Below, piece after piece: positions 407 through 17,585 of a stretch of 34,656 bases of DNA. Under the pieces are notes generated by a model. The model saw nothing but the letters and a program-made list of their open reading frames with translations. It was not told the origin of the DNA and searched no databases. Within the stretch, counting starts at the first letter, position 1; every line of letters starts with the position of its first letter. Location: positions 1 to 34,656 of the forward strand of contig WHSO01000032.1 of the NCBI GenBank assembly GCA_009380075.1. The letters run 5' to 3'. Origin of the DNA: Alphaproteobacteria bacterium (lineage in GTDB: Bacteria; Pseudomonadota; Alphaproteobacteria; SMXQ01). Made by a program: the position numbers and the translations under genes.

Positions 407-1066
407 TCAGACCGGGTGGATGATGCTCGCCGGCACAAGGACGGTATCGAAGATACAGATTTTCTCGCGGAACCTGAGGCGCCTGCCGTCGCGCACGATC
501 GTGTCGAGGTAGCGCCCGGCGTTGAGGATCTGGGTGTACTGGTTGGGCAGGGTCTCGAGCACGACGTAATTGGCGCAGGCCTCGATAACGCCGCCCTTCT
601 CCGACAGCAGCCGGGTGTTGGAGATCAGGTGGGTCAGATAGCGTTCATGATAGACCGTCGTCTTCTTGACCGAGGCGACGCGGTCGAGCAGCCCGCCGCG
701 CTTCTCCGCGAACATGGTGCCGAGCGGCAGGCCGAGGTCGTAGTTCTCCCGGCTGATGAGCTTGTAGATGCAGTCGTCGGTGAAGAAGTCCGGCCAATCC
801 TCGATGCGGCCGTGGTCGAGGCAATAGGCGTAGGCCGCGTGCAGTTCCTCGATCTCGAGGCGGAGCATGAACGTGTCGCTGAGGCCCGCGCCGGCGGCGC
901 GGAAGGCACGTGCGGGTGACGCCGCCTTGCGCGCGGCGGTCTTGCGCTTCGCTGTTTTCTTTGCCGGGGCCTTCCTAGCGGCGGCTTTTTTCCTCGCAGG
1001 CGCCTTGCGGGCGCGCACCTTGGCCTTGGCGCCCTTGCGGGAAGTCTTTCTTGCCGGTCGTGCCAT
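407..1066 (-). CDS. Ring-hydroxylating dioxygenase beta subunit with histone-H1-like N-terminal tail
   Basis: From about residue 67 to the end (219) this is the small, non-catalytic beta subunit of a Rieske ring-hydroxylating dioxygenase, a cystatin/SnoaL-like alpha+beta fold that holds the alpha subunits in the oligomer. Supporting features are the DHGRIEDWPDFFTDDCIYK segment near the start of the domain and the C-terminal LRFREKICIFDT strand. It most resembles the terephthalate/anthranilate type. The first 60 residues are unusual: 22 of the first 50 are Lys or Arg, 17 are Ala and none is acidic, with RKAPARKK and APAKKTAKRK blocks as in bacterial histone-H1-like proteins. The ATG lies 3 nt after the alpha stop with GGGA 9 nt upstream, pointing to translational coupling. 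An internal ATG at 868 (Met67) would give a tail-less form, but no ribosome binding site precedes it. Confidence 0.87.
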   Translation of the reverse strand: MARPARKTSRKGAKAKVRARKAPARKKAAARKAPAKKTAKRKTAARKAASPARAFRAAGAGLSDTFMLRLEIEELHAAYAYCLDHGRIEDWPDFFTDDCIYKLISRENYDLGLPLGTMFAEKRGGLLDRVASVKKTTVYHERYLTHLISNTRLLSEKGGVIEACANYVVLETLPNQYTQILNAGRYLDTIVRDGRRLRFREKICIFDTVLVPASIIHPV

Positions 1067-1069
1067 TGC

Positions 1070-2323
1070 CTAGAGTCCCATGATCTCGCGGTAGGCCTTG
1101 TAGAAGGCCCGGATAGAGCTTTCCGTCACCATGTGGGGCGTGTTCTCGGTGCCCTTGCCGCCCATCTCCACCACCGCGGCCGCGTCGGGATAGCGCGAGA
1201 TGCCCGATTGGCACGATTCCATGACTTCCGAGTCGTCCACCGAGACGTAGCCCGCAGGCCCCATAAGATTGGCCTGGCGCAGCCGGCGCCGCGTCATCTC
1301 CTCGTCGTCGTCCTCATAGCCGAAGAAGGTCCAGTGCAGTTCCATTTCCTCAGGCTTGAAGCAGCGGATCTGGCGCATGGCGATGGTGTTGGACTGCTGC
1401 TGGATGATGAGGTTGGGGAAGAACGTGTGCATTACCACCGTTTCCGTTCCCTTGGACGCCCACTCGGGATAGGGCTGAAGCATTTCGGGGTTTTGCAGTT
1501 TGAGGTCGGGGTCGAGCTGACGGATATCGAGGTTTTCCTCCGTCACCTTCTGCTCGCCGCGGGTCGCCGCCTGGATGGCGTGCAGGCCGGTTTCGTCGTT
1601 CTCGACCTTCGACGGCGTGTCGGCACGGAACAGGCCGAAGGACACCAGGAACACATGCAGCAGGCTGGCGTGATAAGGGTCCTTGATGTTCTCGAACTTG
1701 ATCTTCCAGTTGGCGCGGATGCGCTGGCGTGAATAACCGAGCACCTTGAGCTTGCGTCCATCGAACACGCGGTCGAAGTAGCGGATCATCAGCGCGCCGA
1801 AATACTCCTCGAGCGGCGGCATGGTGGGGTCGAAGGAGGCGAAGATCACGCCGTTGCGCACCTGGACCTTGAGGGTTTGCAGGCCGTGGTCCTCCATGCG
1901 GAAGTCGTCCGGCATGCCGCCCTGCTTCTTGACACCGCGGCGGAAGGGAACGCCGATCAGCGTGCCGTCCAGCTTGTAGGTCCATTGGTGATAGGGGCAG
2001 ATGAATTCCTTGTTGTTGCCGCGCTCATGGTAGCAGAACTTGACGCCGCGATGGGCGCAGCGGTTGGCGACGACGCGAACCTCCCCGTCGAGGTCGCGGG
2101 CGAAGACCACGGGCTTGTCGCCGATGAAGGTGCGCCGGAAGTCGCCGGGATCGGGGATCTCGCACTCGAGGCCGACGTAGCTGTAGGTGCGCCCGCCGAA
2201 TATCACCTCCATCTCGCGCTGGAAAATCCTGGGGTCGGTGTAGACCCAGTAAGGGACGCGGGTGAAACCTTCCTCGGGCCAGGTGTGGACGACGGGATCG
2301 AAATTGGAGAGCGCGGTTGCCAT
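1070..2323 (-). CDS. Rieske ring-hydroxylating dioxygenase alpha subunit, terephthalate-dioxygenase-like
   Basis: This is the catalytic subunit of an aromatic-ring dioxygenase (417 residues), which adds both atoms of O2 to an arene to give a cis-diol. The Rieske [2Fe-2S] ligands are visible as Cys89-x-His91 and Cys109-x2-His112. The mononuclear iron site is Asp215-x2-His218-x4-His223 within NIKDPYHASLLH. The C-terminal part (QANLMGPAGYVSVDD, then AVVEMGGKG) recalls the terephthalate 1,2-dioxygenase large subunit TphA2 from memory; the true substrate is unknown. I chose ATG at 2323 because CAGGAG lies 7 nt before it; an upstream in-frame extension to 2401 lacks such a site and is low-complexity. 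The beta gene follows after 3 nt. No reductase or ferredoxin gene is nearby, so electrons must come from a partner encoded elsewhere. Confidence 0.93.
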   Translation of the reverse strand: MATALSNFDPVVHTWPEEGFTRVPYWVYTDPRIFQREMEVIFGGRTYSYVGLECEIPDPGDFRRTFIGDKPVVFARDLDGEVRVVANRCAHRGVKFCYHERGNNKEFICPYHQWTYKLDGTLIGVPFRRGVKKQGGMPDDFRMEDHGLQTLKVQVRNGVIFASFDPTMPPLEEYFGALMIRYFDRVFDGRKLKVLGYSRQRIRANWKIKFENIKDPYHASLLHVFLVSFGLFRADTPSKVENDETGLHAIQAATRGEQKVTEENLDIRQLDPDLKLQNPEMLQPYPEWASKGTETVVMHTFFPNLIIQQQSNTIAMRQIRCFKPEEMELHWTFFGYEDDDEEMTRRRLRQANLMGPAGYVSVDDSEVMESCQSGISRYPDAAAVVEMGGKGTENTPHMVTESSIRAFYKAYREIMGL

Positions 2324-2445: not shown

Positions 2446-3366
2446 TCAGCCTTCCGCCTTCCCGTGGCAACGCCGGTACAGGAGACCGCTGCCGCAGTGA
2501 CAGAGGCCCCCTTGCTTCGGTTCCTTCGTGCGCGAGAGATGGTCCACAAGGGCCCAGGAAAACAGCCTCTGGTACCGCTCCGGCAGGGCGAAGACCTGTT
2601 CCGGGGTGACGTCGGTCGGCGGCTGCTTGGCATAGTTCACCGGGTCCCGGAACCAGGGCCGCGCGTAGATATTGTAGATCAGGGGGCGGGGGATATCGGA
2701 TTTGTTCCCGATACCGCAGTGCAGGACGCGGTAGTCGAACAGATAGCACGTCCCCAGATCGGCGACGAAATCGACGCCGGGGCCGAGGTTCGGATCGTTC
2801 CTCGCCGCCCGCCGCAGGTGCGTTCCCGGCCAGAATCGCGTGCAGCCGGTCAGTTCCGTGATCGGCACCAGGGGCAACCCCAGCGTGATGGCATAGGGCG
2901 GCGCCTTGGCGATCAGGGTCTCCACCCCCGGGTAGCTGAACCCGGGATCGTAGATATTGTCATAGTCCCGGTGCCGCCCCTGGTCCCTCGATCCCGGCAG
3001 CGAGATGACGCAGCCCATCGAGGCGAGGATAAGCTTCCGCGTCAGCAGGAACTCCAGCAGCGGAAAGATCTTCGGCGGGGCAAAGAAGTCGACGGCGTTG
3101 AAGGCGCCTTCCAGCTTGAGCGTCACCATCGTCCGCCGCTCGGACAGGTCGAGGGCGTCGTCGTACGTCCGCGCGTCGAAGTATTGTCCGTAGCCGGCCT
3201 TGAATTCGTCATGCAGCTTCTGCACGTAGGCGGGATCGAAAGCATTCCGGATCAGGAGGAACCCGTGCGCCAGGAACAGTTCGATCGCTTCCTGGAGGAT
3301 CAGCGACGTCTTGATCGAGGCGGGCAGCTCTATCGCTTTCGCGTCGAGGATCGGCGCGGTTGGCAT
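2446..3366 (-). CDS. Phytanoyl-CoA dioxygenase family protein with C-terminal SEC-C zinc motif
   Basis: This 306-residue protein belongs to the PhyH family of Fe(II)/2-oxoglutarate-dependent oxygenases, which hydroxylate acyl or small-molecule substrates. The iron triad is probably His132-x-Asp134 (RHRDYDN) and His216 (LHCGIGNK); Arg227 fits the 2-oxoglutarate-binding position. The last 20 residues carry a SEC-C type zinc motif, Cys289-x-Cys291 and Cys300-His301 in LCHCGSGLLYRRCHG, normally found at the end of SecA and of assorted enzymes. That tail on a PhyH protein is uncommon in my experience. The ATG at 3366 has GAGG 8 nt upstream, inside the end of the TRAP permease gene, which stops only 9 nt before. 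It is therefore very likely co-transcribed and perhaps coupled to the transporter. Its substrate may be an aliphatic or ring-cleaved intermediate, but that is inference. Confidence 0.85.
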   Translation of the reverse strand: MPTAPILDAKAIELPASIKTSLILQEAIELFLAHGFLLIRNAFDPAYVQKLHDEFKAGYGQYFDARTYDDALDLSERRTMVTLKLEGAFNAVDFFAPPKIFPLLEFLLTRKLILASMGCVISLPGSRDQGRHRDYDNIYDPGFSYPGVETLIAKAPPYAITLGLPLVPITELTGCTRFWPGTHLRRAARNDPNLGPGVDFVADLGTCYLFDYRVLHCGIGNKSDIPRPLIYNIYARPWFRDPVNYAKQPPTDVTPEQVFALPERYQRLFSWALVDHLSRTKEPKQGGLCHCGSGLLYRRCHGKAEG

Positions 3367-3375
3367 GGGTGCACC

Positions 3376-5445
3376 TCACCCGGTCGCCGTTTTGGCGGTC
3401 AGCCGATTGATCGCGAAGGTGACGACGGCGAGCACGATGCCGGCGATCGTCGCGGTCAGGAACGGCGTGATCATGACCAGGCCCGCCACCGCCATCACCA
3501 CGCGGGCCGCCGGCGTGGCGCAGATCGGCTTGTAGCTTTCGAGCGCAGCGGCGACGAAGACGATGCCGAGCGCGGCCGTGACGAAGGTGACCAGCGTCTG
3601 CCACAGCGGCCCGATCCACAGCAGCTCCGGCCCGTAGACGAAGATGAAGGGCACCAGGAACGCCGCCAGGGCGAATCGGGTGGCATGGGCGGCGATGGCG
3701 AGCGGGTTGTCCTCGGCTATGGACGCGGCGGCATAGGCGGCCACCGCCACCGGCGGCGTCAGCGCGCTCAGAACCGCGAAATAGAGCAGGAACAGGTGCC
3801 CCGGCAGCGCCGGGACGTTGATCTGGGTGAACAGCGGCCCCATCAGCACCGCCGCCAGGATATAGGCGGACGGCGTCGGCATGCCCATGCCGAGAAGGAT
3901 GGTCAGCACCGCCGCCACGACCAGAGTCAGGAACATCTGCGCGTCGGTCAGGGCGTAGACGAGATGCGCGAACTTGGCGGCGAGCCCGGTCATGGTGATG
4001 CCGGCGATCACCAGCCCGGCGGCGGCGCAGGCGCCGGCCACCGGGACCGAACGCACCGCCGCTTCCGCCATCGCCCGGTAGATGACAGCGAGCCCGATCC
4101 GGGTCTCGGGATAGAGCGTGGCGACGAAGAGCGCCGATCCGATGACGAGGGCAAGCTCCCGCTGCGGGCCCAGGTCGGCGATATGGGCGTAAATCTGCAC
4201 GAGGCCGGGCAGCAGCGCGAACCACGCCGTGCGCGGGTGCGCCCGCAGGAACGGCACCGCGCGGTAAATCGCGGCGACGTAGATCACGGCGACGGTGCCG
4301 TAGACCGCGACCATCGTCGGCGTGTAGCCGGCCAGCAGGGTCAGCACCAGCACGACAAGGGGAACGACGAAAAGCCCGCCCTTGCGCAGGGTACGCGCCA
4401 GCGTCGGAAGCGTCGCCGGGTCGAGCCCGCCGAAGCCGTGCCGCACGGAGCGGAAATGCACCTGCGAATAGACCCCGACGTAATAGAGGATGGCGGGAAG
4501 CAGCGCCGCCGCGGCGATATCGGCGTAATCGATACCGGTGTATTCGGCCATGATGAAGGCCGCTGATCCCATCACCGGTGGCATCAGGCTGCCGCCGGTC
4601 GAGGCGGCGACCTCGATGGCGCCGGCGACCCGACCGGGGTAACCGAGCTTGCGCATGATCGGGATGGTGATCGACCCGGTGGTCACCACGTCCGCGGTGG
4701 GGCTTCCGGAAATCATGCCGTAGAGCCCCGACGACACCACCGCCACCTTGGCCGGCCCGCCCGCCGCGCGGCCCGAGATGGCGGCGGCGAAGTCGTAGAA
4801 GAAATCGCCGCCCTTGGCGTGGTAGAGCACGGTTCCGAACAGCACGAACATGAAGGCATAGGTCGCCGCCACCCGCACCGGGAGGCCCATGACGCCGTCG
4901 GTGGTGTAGACCATGATGTCGAGGAAGTGGTTGTAGTCGATGTAGCCGTGGTGGAGCACGCCCGGCAACAGGTGGCCGAAGAAGTTGTAGGCGATGAACA
5001 CCAGCACCACGAAGGTCAGGCCGAGGCCGGTGGTGCGGCGCGTGATCTCGATGGTGAGCAGGAAGGTGATGGTGCCGAACAGGAGCTGCAGGTCGTCGAG
5101 CGGCGTCAGCAGCGAGATCCGCGTCTCCAGCACGTCCGACGTGATCGAGTAATACACGCCGCACGCCAGGCTCGCCGCTGCCAGCACCCAGTCCACCAGC
5201 GAAGGGCGCGTCTCGTCCGAATCGGGCCGGGCGCCGACCGAGAGGAAGGCAAGCGTCATCATGGCGCTGAGGAAGATCGCCGCCAGCTCCCACGGGTCGA
5301 TGATGATCCAGACCGCGGCGAAGACGACGTAAAGCGCGACGGCGAAGGCGAACACCCCCATGCCGATGCCGAGCCTGCCGTGCGCCGCGCGGCGGCAGCC
5401 GACCTCGAACCAGGTGGCGGGCCTCAGGTATCTGTTGGCGGCCAT
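3376..5445 (-). CDS. TRAP transporter permease, fused 4TM/12TM (DctQM) of the TAXI type
   Basis: This 689-residue integral membrane protein joins the small (DctQ) and large (DctM) permease subunits of a tripartite ATP-independent periplasmic transporter, which imports organic acids using an ion gradient. The N-terminal third holds the four-helix Q part. The M part shows the family signatures ISGSPTADVVTTGSITIPIM and ASTGGSLMPPVMGSAAFIMAE, and a second half-repeat with MGMPTPSAYILAAVLMGP. Such fused permeases pair with TAXI solute-binding proteins, and one is encoded 74 nt upstream. The ATG at 5443-5445 follows GGAGA with a 7-nt gap. The length is normal for the fused class. The neighbouring oxygenases and decarboxylase suggest an aromatic or dicarboxylic acid as cargo. 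Confidence 0.93.
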   Translation of the reverse strand: MAANRYLRPATWFEVGCRRAAHGRLGIGMGVFAFAVALYVVFAAVWIIIDPWELAAIFLSAMMTLAFLSVGARPDSDETRPSLVDWVLAAASLACGVYYSITSDVLETRISLLTPLDDLQLLFGTITFLLTIEITRRTTGLGLTFVVLVFIAYNFFGHLLPGVLHHGYIDYNHFLDIMVYTTDGVMGLPVRVAATYAFMFVLFGTVLYHAKGGDFFYDFAAAISGRAAGGPAKVAVVSSGLYGMISGSPTADVVTTGSITIPIMRKLGYPGRVAGAIEVAASTGGSLMPPVMGSAAFIMAEYTGIDYADIAAAALLPAILYYVGVYSQVHFRSVRHGFGGLDPATLPTLARTLRKGGLFVVPLVVLVLTLLAGYTPTMVAVYGTVAVIYVAAIYRAVPFLRAHPRTAWFALLPGLVQIYAHIADLGPQRELALVIGSALFVATLYPETRIGLAVIYRAMAEAAVRSVPVAGACAAAGLVIAGITMTGLAAKFAHLVYALTDAQMFLTLVVAAVLTILLGMGMPTPSAYILAAVLMGPLFTQINVPALPGHLFLLYFAVLSALTPPVAVAAYAAASIAEDNPLAIAAHATRFALAAFLVPFIFVYGPELLWIGPLWQTLVTFVTAALGIVFVAAALESYKPICATPAARVVMAVAGLVMITPFLTATIAGIVLAVVTFAINRLTAKTATG

Positions 5446-5519: not shown

Positions 5520-6509
5520 CTAGAGCAGGCCGGCTTCCTTGAACGCCTTCTCCGCGCCCGGGTGATGCGGGGCGACGGCCGGCTCCGCGATCGACTGCGG
5601 CGTCGTCGCCGCCTTGAGCGCGCGGTGGGCGCCCTTGAAGGTCTCGATCTCCTTCAACACGCCCTTGACCAGGTCATAGGCCTGTTTCTCGGGCATGTCC
5701 TTGTGCACGGCGATGACGCCGCCGACGCAGACGGAAATCTTGTCCTCGTTGATGAACTTGTGCTCGTTCGCCTTGATCGTGCAAGGCTGGCCGCCGAACT
5801 TCGTGGCGACGTCCGCCGACGGGGCCGCGCCGACGCTGAGCTGCACCAGTGGGATGCCCTTTTCCATCTCGCGGATGCGGGCGTGGTTGTAGGAAATGCC
5901 GAAGGATACCGCGTCGACCCGGCGGTCGAGCATCAGCGACGTCATTTCCGACGACGCGGCGCGGACCACCTGCTTGAAGCTCTTGGCGGGGATATCGTTG
6001 GCCTCGATCACGGCGATGCCGATGTCGCCGTCCATGTTGCCCGGGCGGTTGAAGGCGATGCGCACCTGCCGCGCGTTCTTCTTCAGGCCGGCCATGTCGG
6101 TGATGCCGTACTTCTTGGCGACGTCGCCGTTCAGCAGCACATAGGTGTACTGGAAGCGGCTGGACGGCGCATAGACCCGGAACAGGGTGCGGAGACTGGA
6201 CTGCGGCTTGCCCCGGAACGCGCCTTCGCCGCGGTAGGCGGCGGCGAGCTCCATGTCCGCGGTGATGCCGAAGGGCACCTTCTTGTCGTTGATCAGCTTG
6301 GCGTTGGCGAGACCGCCGGAGCCCGTCTGGTAGGTGACCGTCGAGCCGGGATAGGCCTTGCTGTAGACCTTGTCGAGGCCGGCCCCGATGGTGGACCACA
6401 GACCCCCCGGGCTCGCCCCGGCGAGGGTGAGGCTGTACTTGTCCTGGGCGCCCGCCGGCGCCGCGGCGATGGCGGCAGTGGCGAGTGCGCCGATCAACAG
6501 TTTACGCAT
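5520..6509 (-). CDS. TAXI family TRAP transporter solute-binding protein
   Basis: This periplasmic binding protein (329 residues) captures the substrate and delivers it to the fused TRAP permease encoded next. It has a clear signal peptide: MRKLL, a hydrophobic alanine-rich core, and a likely cleavage site after AGA at residue 21. The mature part begins with the TAXI pattern ASPGGLWSTIGAGL and has the GSGGLANAKLINDKKVPFGI segment, equivalent to the ligand-binding glycine loop followed by a xxGI strand. The reading frame stays open far upstream, but ATG 6507-6509 is favoured because GGGAG lies 7 nt before it and the signal peptide starts there. It sits between the decarboxylase-like gene (50 nt upstream) and the permease gene (74 nt downstream). 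The TAXI designation comes from fold and context; the ligand is unknown. Confidence 0.92.
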   Translation of the reverse strand: MRKLLIGALATAAIAAAPAGAQDKYSLTLAGASPGGLWSTIGAGLDKVYSKAYPGSTVTYQTGSGGLANAKLINDKKVPFGITADMELAAAYRGEGAFRGKPQSSLRTLFRVYAPSSRFQYTYVLLNGDVAKKYGITDMAGLKKNARQVRIAFNRPGNMDGDIGIAVIEANDIPAKSFKQVVRAASSEMTSLMLDRRVDAVSFGISYNHARIREMEKGIPLVQLSVGAAPSADVATKFGGQPCTIKANEHKFINEDKISVCVGGVIAVHKDMPEKQAYDLVKGVLKEIETFKGAHRALKAATTPQSIAEPAVAPHHPGAEKAFKEAGLL

Positions 6510-6559
6510 TGCAATCTCCCTGATCTGGTTCGTGTTGGATCGTGTGAAGACTGTTGCCG

Positions 6560-7549
6560 TCAAATCCTGCTGCGCTCGAGTGTGGATGGAACGAAGATTT
6601 CCTCGGCCGTCAGCCGCCGCGAGGCGAGGCCCTGGTCGAAATGATAACGCAGGAAGGCGTCGACCGTCTTGCGGTTTTCGTCGAGACCGTAGGGCCAGAA
6701 GTCTTCGCCCATCAAAGCCTTGGCCTGCGCGGTATAGGCCTCCATCCAGGGGTTGGTGGCGCGCGGGCTGTTGTCGTAGGACACTTCCTGGTAGGCGATG
6801 GCCTTGGCCTGTTCGAAGGCCTTGAACACGCTGTCGGGAAGCCACGGATTTTCCGCGATCGTGCGCTTGTGGACGCCGACCAGGTGCATGATGGGAAAAA
6901 TCCCCGTGCGCTTGAAGTAGTCCTGCTCGGTCTTGATGAACTCGGGCCACAGGCGGGTGACGTCGGGGTGTCCCTTGACGTAGCAGGTGGGCGAGCGCGG
7001 CGCGATGATCGCGTCGATGTCGTTGTCGGCGAGCATCTGCTGCAGTGTCTTGCCCTTCGGGATCGGCTTGAGGCTCAGCCCCCTGGGTGGCGTGAAGTGG
7101 GTCTTCTGGGTGCGTCCCGCCTGCTCAATCCCGCCCCAGCGCCAGTCGATGTCGGCGGGTGTGATGCCGTATTCGTCCTCCAGCACGCCGCGCACCCAGG
7201 TCACCGCGGTCACCTGGTATTCCGGCGTGCCCACCACCTTGCCCTTCAGGTCCGTGGGCTTCTTGATGCCCGAACGCTTGTTGATGAACACGCCCGAGTG
7301 GCGGAACTTGCGTGCCGGAAAGGCGGGGATGGCGATGTAGGGGCAGTCGCCGTCGGCGGTCATGGTCAGGTAGTTGGAGAACGACAGCTCGGTGACGTGG
7401 AATTCCTCGTAATGGAGCGCGCGGTGGAACATCTCCTCGGGCTCGACCTCGATGACCGTGGCGTCGCAGCCCTCGATCCGGACCCGTCCGTCGAGCAGCG
7501 GGCGGGTGCGGTCGTAGAGCGTGACCGCGACGGTGAGTTTGAGCGTCAT
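6560..7549 (-). CDS. 4,5-dihydroxyphthalate decarboxylase-like protein
   Basis: This 329-residue protein resembles the family that includes 4,5-dihydroxyphthalate decarboxylase (Pht5), which has a type-II periplasmic-binding-protein fold. Seen: the N-terminal LKLTVAVTLYDRTRPLLDGRV strand pair typical of that family, the KPTDLKGKVVGTPEYQVTAV hinge region, and the WRWGGIEQAGRT and NPWMEAYTAQAKALMGEDFW blocks. No signal peptide is present, so a cytoplasmic enzyme fits better than a binding protein, although members are often misannotated either way. It is the first gene of the operon, with AGGGGG about 12 nt before the ATG and a possible promoter just beyond. In context it could decarboxylate a dihydroxylated aromatic diacid formed by the dioxygenase. 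The exact reaction cannot be read from sequence. Confidence 0.8.
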   Translation of the reverse strand: MTLKLTVAVTLYDRTRPLLDGRVRIEGCDATVIEVEPEEMFHRALHYEEFHVTELSFSNYLTMTADGDCPYIAIPAFPARKFRHSGVFINKRSGIKKPTDLKGKVVGTPEYQVTAVTWVRGVLEDEYGITPADIDWRWGGIEQAGRTQKTHFTPPRGLSLKPIPKGKTLQQMLADNDIDAIIAPRSPTCYVKGHPDVTRLWPEFIKTEQDYFKRTGIFPIMHLVGVHKRTIAENPWLPDSVFKAFEQAKAIAYQEVSYDNSPRATNPWMEAYTAQAKALMGEDFWPYGLDENRKTVDAFLRYHFDQGLASRRLTAEEIFVPSTLERSRI

Positions 7550-16512: not shown

Positions 16513-17025
16513 TCACTTCGCCGCCGCGGCCTCCCGCATCCAGGTGGGCAGGCACTTGCCCTCCAGCGCGTCGTCGAGGGATTCGAGCGACCCATAGGGA
16601 TGCTCCATCGCCTGGAACCGTTCGCGCGGGCAGTTGACGTAGGCCTCGATCAGGTTGCGGTCGGGGTCGAGGAAATAGATCGAATTGGTGACGATGTGGT
16701 CAACCGTGTGGTGGATTTCGGCGCCGACCGCTTTCAGGCGGCGGTAAAAGGCGCGCAGGGTCTCGAAATCGTCGGGCGCGATCTCGAAGGCGAAGTGCTC
16801 CATGCCGATGAAGGGGTCGGGCTCGACCCGCGGGCGCGGCGCGTCGGCGTCCCGCGCCAGCTCGAGTGCCAGCATAACCGTTCCACCGGCGCCCAGCAGG
16901 GTGCGGCCGTCCGCATCGGTGCCGAGGTCGGCGAAGCCGAAGACATCGCGGTAGAAGCGGACGGAACGGCCGAGGTCGGCCACCCGCAGCGTCAGGTGGC
17001 TGGTGTGCAGCGCCGGGCCGGTCAT
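16513..17025 (-). CDS. VOC-fold (glyoxalase/bleomycin resistance/dioxygenase) protein
   Basis: This 170-residue protein has the vicinal-oxygen-chelate fold, used by glyoxalases, extradiol dioxygenases and antibiotic-resistance proteins. A metal site is plausible: His10 (SHLTLRV), His77 (GMEHFAFEI) and Glu127 (NLIEAYVN) sit at the usual strand positions, with FYRDVFGF and YFLDPDRNLIE as family landmarks. The ATG at 17025 overlaps the stop of the upstream VOC gene in an ATGA arrangement, so the pair is translationally coupled and may act together, or form a heteromer. The length suits a single two-module VOC unit. The C-terminal tail of about 40 residues (from NCPRERF) is outside the core fold. 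The substrate cannot be inferred. Confidence 0.85.
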   Translation of the reverse strand: MTGPALHTSHLTLRVADLGRSVRFYRDVFGFADLGTDADGRTLLGAGGTVMLALELARDADAPRPRVEPDPFIGMEHFAFEIAPDDFETLRAFYRRLKAVGAEIHHTVDHIVTNSIYFLDPDRNLIEAYVNCPRERFQAMEHPYGSLESLDDALEGKCLPTWMREAAAAK

Positions 17026-17492
17026 GGCGCGCCCCCGGCGCCGGTGCGGCACCAGAATTCGTAAGGCAGCCCGTCGGCGTCGCGGAAGCGGACCGCCTTG
17101 CGGCCGTGGCCGGCGTCGATCTCCGGTCGGATGCCCTTTTCGATGAGCCGCGCCACCACGCGCTCGAAGCCCGTGGGATCGGTGATCTCGAAGCTGACCC
17201 GGGCCATGCCCACGAGGGCGTCGGCGTCCTGCGCGGTGGCGCCGGGCTTGGCCGGGCGGATCAGCAGCATGTGATGGTTGTCGGCGAAGTCGGAGGTCAG
17301 GAAATGCATGCCCCGCTGTACCACGCCCTTGCGGGTGAAGCCGCGGATGTCCCTGACGATGTCTTCGAAGAACCGTGCCGTGCGCTCGGGGTCCTTCACG
17401 CGGACGACGACGTGACCCGCCTTGCGGACGGTGAAACCGGCACCGGTGCCGGAGGACATGCCTGTGTGGGGTTCCGGATGCGTGACGCTCAT
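17022..17492 (-). CDS. VOC-fold protein, coupled to the following VOC gene
   Basis: A second VOC-superfamily protein (156 residues). After an N-terminal lead of about 24 residues the fold begins GHVVVRVKDPERTARFFEDI and ends RFRDADGLPYEFWC. His27 and Glu145 occupy the first and last metal-ligand positions, but the middle histidine is not at its usual place (ARVSFEIT instead of xxHxxF), while NHHMLL near residue 72 offers other histidines. It may therefore bind metal differently from its partner. The ATG at 17490-17492 follows GGGAGG with a 6-nt gap, a strong site; the longer frame to 17531 has none. Its stop overlaps the next start by four bases. Substrate unknown. Confidence 0.85.
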   Translation of the reverse strand: MSVTHPEPHTGMSSGTGAGFTVRKAGHVVVRVKDPERTARFFEDIVRDIRGFTRKGVVQRGMHFLTSDFADNHHMLLIRPAKPGATAQDADALVGMARVSFEITDPTGFERVVARLIEKGIRPEIDAGHGRKAVRFRDADGLPYEFWCRTGAGGAP

Positions 17493-17585
17493 GGGATCCT
17501 CCCGCGGCCGTTCAGTGCCCGAGAATAGCACGTCGGCCGCGGGACGGAAACCGGGCGCGCGGTCAAGCGACCCGGCGCGGTGCGG

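Follow-up and report, generated by a model that had tools for sequence, protein, structure and literature searches.

Nucleoid proteins and granule phasins are known to carry polycationic tails that resemble those of histone H1-like proteins. In PhaF and AlgP, tails rich in Lys, Ala and Pro bind DNA and serve to position granules of PHA or polyphosphate (PMC9239181), the disordered Lys-rich N-terminus of YihI binds polyphosphate, K-to-R changes having abolished the polyphosphate shift (PMC12345225), and low-complexity regions rich in Lys occur preferentially in DNA-binding proteins (PMC6821194). Lys-rich tails similar in composition and terminal position also occur on bacterial TopA, bL21, HU-like proteins and penicillin-binding protein 1. 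Those are nucleic-acid or cell-wall proteins, whereas the carriers described here, repeatedly, are soluble catabolic enzymes. The first of them is the beta subunit of a ring-hydroxylating oxygenase in the window, by which we mean the whole 34,656-nucleotide stretch of alphaproteobacterial DNA that was analysed. In its alpha-beta pair and its beta fold this enzyme is like AndAc/AndAd anthranilate 1,2-dioxygenase, salicylate 5-hydroxylase NagGH and terephthalate dioxygenase. H1-like tails are known, as are oxygenase beta subunits as a family; in a limited search of the open-access literature we found no beta subunit with such a tail.

The features of the locus are collected in Table 1. The best NCBIfam match of the beta-subunit body, the AndAd model NF041685 (E 8e-41, 139 bits), begins at residue 66, so that the additional part of the protein is residues 1-66, and Pfam Ring_hydroxyl_B (PF00866) covers residues 80-209 (E 6.6e-12, 46 bits; cut-off 27). 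The beta domain, the adjacent Rieske alpha subunit (PF00355, PF00848) and the fold match to NagH and the terephthalate dioxygenase (TPADO) beta subunit place the protein among beta subunits of the AndAd/NagH type. It falls outside the AndAd equivalog (NF041685), for which the curated cut-off is 230 bits, and the AndAc and AndAd scores of the alpha and beta subunits both lie well under the equivalog cut-offs. Structure matches of the beta subunit are 7c8z_B (NagH; TMt 0.89), 3eby (Novosphingobium; 0.91) and 7q05/7vju (terephthalate dioxygenase; 0.93). Of the small subunits with solved structures, the nearest are about 154-163 aa long and begin near residue 60-70 of the window protein, and thus have no tail.

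Table 1. Features of the oxygenase locus in the window, followed by binding-protein-like proteins with basic ends in related contigs
Feature	Position	Strand	Evidence or remarks
Ring-hydroxylating oxygenase beta subunit, anthranilate/salicylate type	407-1066	-	219 aa
Beta-subunit tail, residues 1-66, basic, acid-free, predicted disordered	869..1066	-	net charge +23; translation, composition, AlphaFold2, G001/G004 counterparts
Beta-subunit body (AndAd/NagH/TPADO-beta type), residues 67-219 with stop	407..868	-	NF041685, PF00866, solved structures
Internal ATG, codon 67, alternative start	866..868	-	no Shine-Dalgarno-like sequence in front
Oxygenase alpha subunit, Rieske and catalytic domain, AndAc type	1070..2323	-	NF041684 E 1.5e-128, PF00355, PF00848
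PhyH-family oxygenase with SEC-C-like end, upstream in the same gene run	2446..3366	-	PF05721 E 1.2e-12
Fused TRAP transporter permease	3376..5445	-	TIGR02123 E 1.8e-168
TAXI-family TRAP solute-binding protein	5520..6515	-	TIGR02122 E 2.2e-35
NMT1/SsuA-like binding protein	6560..7549	-	same order with CtaA, TAXI, TRAP beside alpha-beta in G001, G004
Binding-protein-like, Lys/Arg-run end	L128:16089-17231	-	G000:C14
Binding-protein-like, Lys/Arg-run end	L144:17916-19130	+	G004:C10
Binding-protein-like, Lys/Arg-run end	L191:14629-15813	+	G001:C25

The first 50 residues of the beta subunit contain 13 Lys and 9 Arg (22 basic residues), 17 Ala and no Asp or Glu. In an AlphaFold2 model built with 40 relatives they form coil with no regular structure and block pLDDT values of 57-62, while the body is mostly above 90; a pLDDT of about 60 without regular structure predicts that the tail is intrinsically disordered. 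Lys and Arg make up 36-41% of the four beta tails we identified (window, G001, G004 and G166, see below), acidic residues number 0-1 and lie at the junction, and the tails are H1-like by composition (about 35-45% K/R, Ala-rich, no acidic residues, disordered). Scores against curated families lie far under their cut-offs (HC2, PF07382: E 0.08, 13.4 bits against 40; the Rv3852 family: E 0.018, 15.6 bits against 100), and the likeness to H1-like proteins is therefore one of composition only. An Rfam search gave no match. As a source of the tail, an H1-like protein of the same genome was considered and no donor was found in G000, in a weak test with composition-corrected scores. One protein of about 318 aa in G004 (L149:5344-6297, minus strand, C15) begins with 90 residues of regular, H1-like (AKKP)n repeat and may be a free-standing H1-like protein there.

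PhaF and AlgP resemble the window protein in having a long, disordered, acid-free, K/A/P-rich polycation appended to another domain, which in PhaF is a carbon-metabolism domain. PhaF, however, is a granule-coating protein and the window beta subunit a soluble oxidoreductase, and compared with the tails of PhaF and AlgP the beta tails are N-terminal and shorter (37-94 aa), lack regular KPAA repeats and contain much Arg in two of the four. YihI is similar in that its N-terminus is Lys-rich, disordered and capable of polyanion binding (PMC12345225), but it also has acidic residues of a PASK-like kind, whereas the window tail has none and nearly half of its basic residues are Arg. The PASK-type polyphosphate-binding motif (a 20-residue window with at least 75% D/E/S/K; PMC12345225) is absent from the first 50 tail residues, which lack D/E and have few Ser.

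The junction of the alpha and beta genes reads TAG GCA ATG, with one codon between the alpha stop and the beta ATG and both in the same frame. The ribosome binding site in front of this ATG (GGGACTCTAGGCA-ATG) is weak, which makes translational coupling of beta to alpha likely, and the sequence in front of codon 67 (GACACGTTC-ATG) has no purine-rich site. We infer that in the window's own organism the tail is almost certainly translated from the upstream ATG. The first-pass annotation had described an H1-like tail fused in frame to a dioxygenase beta subunit. Its residue counts are exact and its domain assignment is borne out by the NF041685 and PF00866 matches, which cover the body; the H1-likeness survives as composition and disorder but not as descent, and the tail, which it had placed at 878-1066, extends slightly further, to residue 66. 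It had also correctly set the start beside the alpha stop and noted the bare internal ATG, but the upstream site that it called usable is a weak one.

That annotation had proposed a search for other tailed beta subunits, and three came to light. In a MAG of the same genus (G001, loci L003 and L005) the orthologue is 72% identical and has a 56-residue tail, MARAAKKTRKKTAKKATTRKAAKKKAAAKKAPARKASAKKTKGARSVASARIGNEL, with a net charge of +21. In G004, from another genus of the same family, the tail is about 92-94 aa long (MAIKPKKKPAKKPGKKAVKK..., net +38). Both tails occupy the same position as that of the window, directly after alpha, so the tail is retained in two genera; a general lack of the tail in close orthologues, with a disrupted frame, had been named as the outcome that would speak against it, and these two orthologues keep it. 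Chimeric assembly or a frameshift as the origin of the tail is ruled out by its presence in these two further assemblies, and judging from the sequences compared the tail is not an accident of assembly or of start-codon choice. Read-through of the alpha stop to give an alpha-tail-beta fusion was also rejected: the stop, TAG in the window and TAA in G001, shares the frame of beta in these two but not in G004, so that the arrangement is not conserved. The third case, G166, belongs to a different family; its beta body is 38% identical and its 37-aa tail, MARATKKTKKVGRRKTTKRRAARASKRTAPARAANG, has a net charge of +15. A strong ribosome binding site, GAGAGAGGGTGAA, precedes the tail ATG, which is the only in-frame start codon within the tail and the following 25 residues, a start corresponding to window codon 67 being absent. 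The G166 tail must therefore be translated. The five paralogues in the same genome are all tailless, and the sequences indicate that this tail arose independently of that of the window clade.

The alignment of the window and G001 tails spans 55 residues, of which 24 are changed; six of the changes are K/R exchanges and none is K to E, and no acidic residue enters the tail core, though K to E takes only one transition. Simulated neutral mutation of the window tail at 20-30% of sites brings in about 2-3 acidic residues, and a stop in 50-60% of runs; the simulated P for no acidic residue is 0.06-0.13, so the single comparison alone is not significant, and three lineages agree. At the protein level the tail changes faster than the body. 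Our comparisons thus indicate a tail that keeps its charge while its sequence drifts.

The tail was found in four of 91 distinct beta-subunit reading frames read with their upstream sequence, which agrees with the first-pass view that it is unusual for the family. The frames came from class- and phylum-wide searches, and loci added later yielded no further tail. A candidate tail in L033 and the upstream extensions of L030, L042, L014 and similar loci were discarded, their own start lying at the body despite the open frame. None of 138 places with plasmid-borne beta subunits extends into a tail, in a test weakened by low-complexity masking. In a tree of 43 beta bodies, built with the tails left out, the window, G001, G004 and G010 form one clade (97/91). 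G010 keeps the oxygenase with a tailless beta subunit, starting MATRAKIDVE, and the tree requires at least three changes of the trait: either a gain before the clade, a loss in G010 and a gain in G166, or three gains. Loss of the G010 tail by an insertion would fit. Alpha and beta of G010 are separated by about 450 bp or more (L007:880-1470, C147) with CG-rich palindromes; this insertion resembles a repeat-associated mobile element, and a small ORF in it looks GIY-YIG-like on inspection by eye.

When used as a query, the G004 tail matched other proteins, a wider pattern that the first-pass annotation did not contain. In G001 a HyuB/caprolactamase-beta-like subunit (L175:8593-10431, minus strand, C24), whose start adjoins the stop of the upstream subunit, has a basic N-terminal tail, MARKVKKSAPRKPAKKTVKKSAKKAAKKKPARKLAARR. 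Tails of 17-41 aa (net +4 to +18) are present in all six close family orthologues (relatives L211-L215) and in none of 14 more distant paralogues. A TPP enzyme (PRK08327-like) has a basic N-terminal tail of about 24-33 aa (G001 L191:15893-17746, plus strand, C25; G000 L196, C100; L199), and its close orthologues are tailed in G000, G001, G003, G004, G008, G009 and G010, not in G002. A second TPP paralogue group carries basic tails in G004, G007, G008 and G010, of the MRKPARKPARK type (L203, L206, L208, L209), and none in G005 and G006. Beside the G010 oxygenase, with its tailless beta subunit, a DapA-like enzyme (L114:1561-2568, minus strand, C147) has an H1-like C-terminal tail, KKAPARKPAKRKAAKKAPMRKAA; shorter Lys runs end its counterparts in G004 and G002. 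Some proteins that resemble exported or periplasmic binding proteins finish in runs of Lys/Arg (KGKAKKKAKKKKKEN, GKRRKRGRRGKGKKKK and PKKKSRKKKKKSE, in the order of Table 1), and TopA has a Lys-rich C-terminus in these genomes. Since TPP, HyuB-like and DapA-like enzymes and binding proteins are tailed, the tail probably has no special link to ring hydroxylation. Samples of 0.36-0.57 Mb per genome gave N-terminal candidates in 1 of 411 coding frames in G000, 3 of 278 in G001 and 5 of 273 in G004, and scans of the same kind over stretches of two control genomes gave 0 of 156 and 1 of 142; because the G001 and G004 stretches include loci picked for their tails, and one G001 match looks spurious, these counts are descriptive only and leave enrichment unproven. 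The G000 sample, with four C-terminal tails among the 411 frames, has few such tails, and this speaks against a dominant genome-wide system.

Genes for CtaA, an NMT1-like protein, TAXI and a TRAP permease adjoin alpha-beta in the window, G001 and G004, and in the latter two these are followed, on the opposite strand, by genes for a gentisate/5-aminosalicylate-dioxygenase-like cupin and a DapA-like enzyme. The TRAP/TAXI and cupin neighbourhood points to an oxygenase that would hydroxylate an imported aromatic acid to a gentisate-type compound. Elsewhere in the window (16513-17531, minus strand) two small overlapping glyoxalase-superfamily ORFs lie in tandem; one scores 50 bits with FosA-type models (cut-offs of at least 180) and is by these models not a resistance gene.

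We tentatively favour, as possible rather than probable, the explanation that the tail is a multivalent polycation that tethers the oxygenase to a cellular polyanion, since non-specific polyanion binding is common to the studied tails of this kind. If the enzyme is an alpha3beta3 hexamer, as we assume from its family (PMC12445004), three tails would extend from each molecule, carrying about +69 charges between them, and could bind nucleoid DNA, RNA/ribosomes or polyphosphate loosely and non-specifically. This would hold or concentrate the aromatic-acid oxygenase at a common site, at which further catabolic enzymes that bear tails in these cells might also be gathered; we infer the hexamer, the binding, the co-localisation and the benefit alike. 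Counting against tethering, the closest analogues are much longer (the AlgP repeat region has 154 residues) and G010 has kept its oxygenase without the beta tail. The Lys-rich C-termini of periplasmic binding proteins, where there is no DNA, also mean that nucleic acid cannot be the only partner.

It is rather unlikely, in our view, that the tails are tolerated by-products, formed by extension at start codons and slippage in short repeats in a lineage that accepts basic termini, and do no more than influence solubility in a general way. The range in length from 37 to 94 aa, the 12-bp tandem repeats in the G004 tail, the three or more gains or losses on the beta tree and the fast protein-level change are all as this would predict, but acidic residues and stops stay out at a divergence where drift should bring them, and unrelated catabolic enzymes of the same genomes have gained the same composition. 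If the tail docked the oxygenase on the inner membrane, which is anionic, the enzyme would sit close to the TRAP transporter and could use aromatic acid as soon as it is imported; the adjoining TRAP/TAXI genes and the basic cytoplasmic end of a penicillin-binding protein of the family would suit this. We find it quite doubtful: hydrophobic or amphipathic residues are nearly lacking in the window tail, no helix is modelled in residues 1-50, and the tailed G166 oxygenase, among the few genes checked around it, lies near a CorA gene and not TRAP genes. Some alpha3beta3 oxygenases have their ferredoxin site in a depression between alpha and beta, and electrostatic contacts of beta subunits with redox partners are possible in some systems (PMC12445004), so the tail could concentrate an acidic ferredoxin or reductase at the oxygenase as an aid to electron transfer. 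We recognised no gene for either among those examined in the first 21 kb or so of the window, which makes a borrowed partner plausible. Such an oxygenase-specific role is nevertheless improbable, because the TPP enzyme, the HyuB-like subunit and the DapA-like lyase, none of them expected to take ferredoxin electrons, are tailed alike, and tailless orthologues occur in the same family. That the tail is never made, translation beginning at codon 67, would agree with the AndAd start and the weak upstream site, but it is very improbable given the frame and composition kept in two orthologues, the lack of another start codon in G166 and of a ribosome binding site before codon 67.

Tethering by charge, our preferred explanation for the oxygenase, has a broader and unlikely form, in which exchangeable polycationic tails would be a general address tag in this uncultured alphaproteobacterial family. 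Unrelated catabolic enzymes (the oxygenase, TPP enzyme, HyuB-like subunit and DapA-like lyase) would be drawn by their charge to the nucleoid or to a common compartment built on a polyanion. The tail offers a simple, removable tag with which charge-based tethering may be tested. If true, charge-based tethering or co-condensation of metabolic enzymes would be commoner in bacteria than has been assumed.
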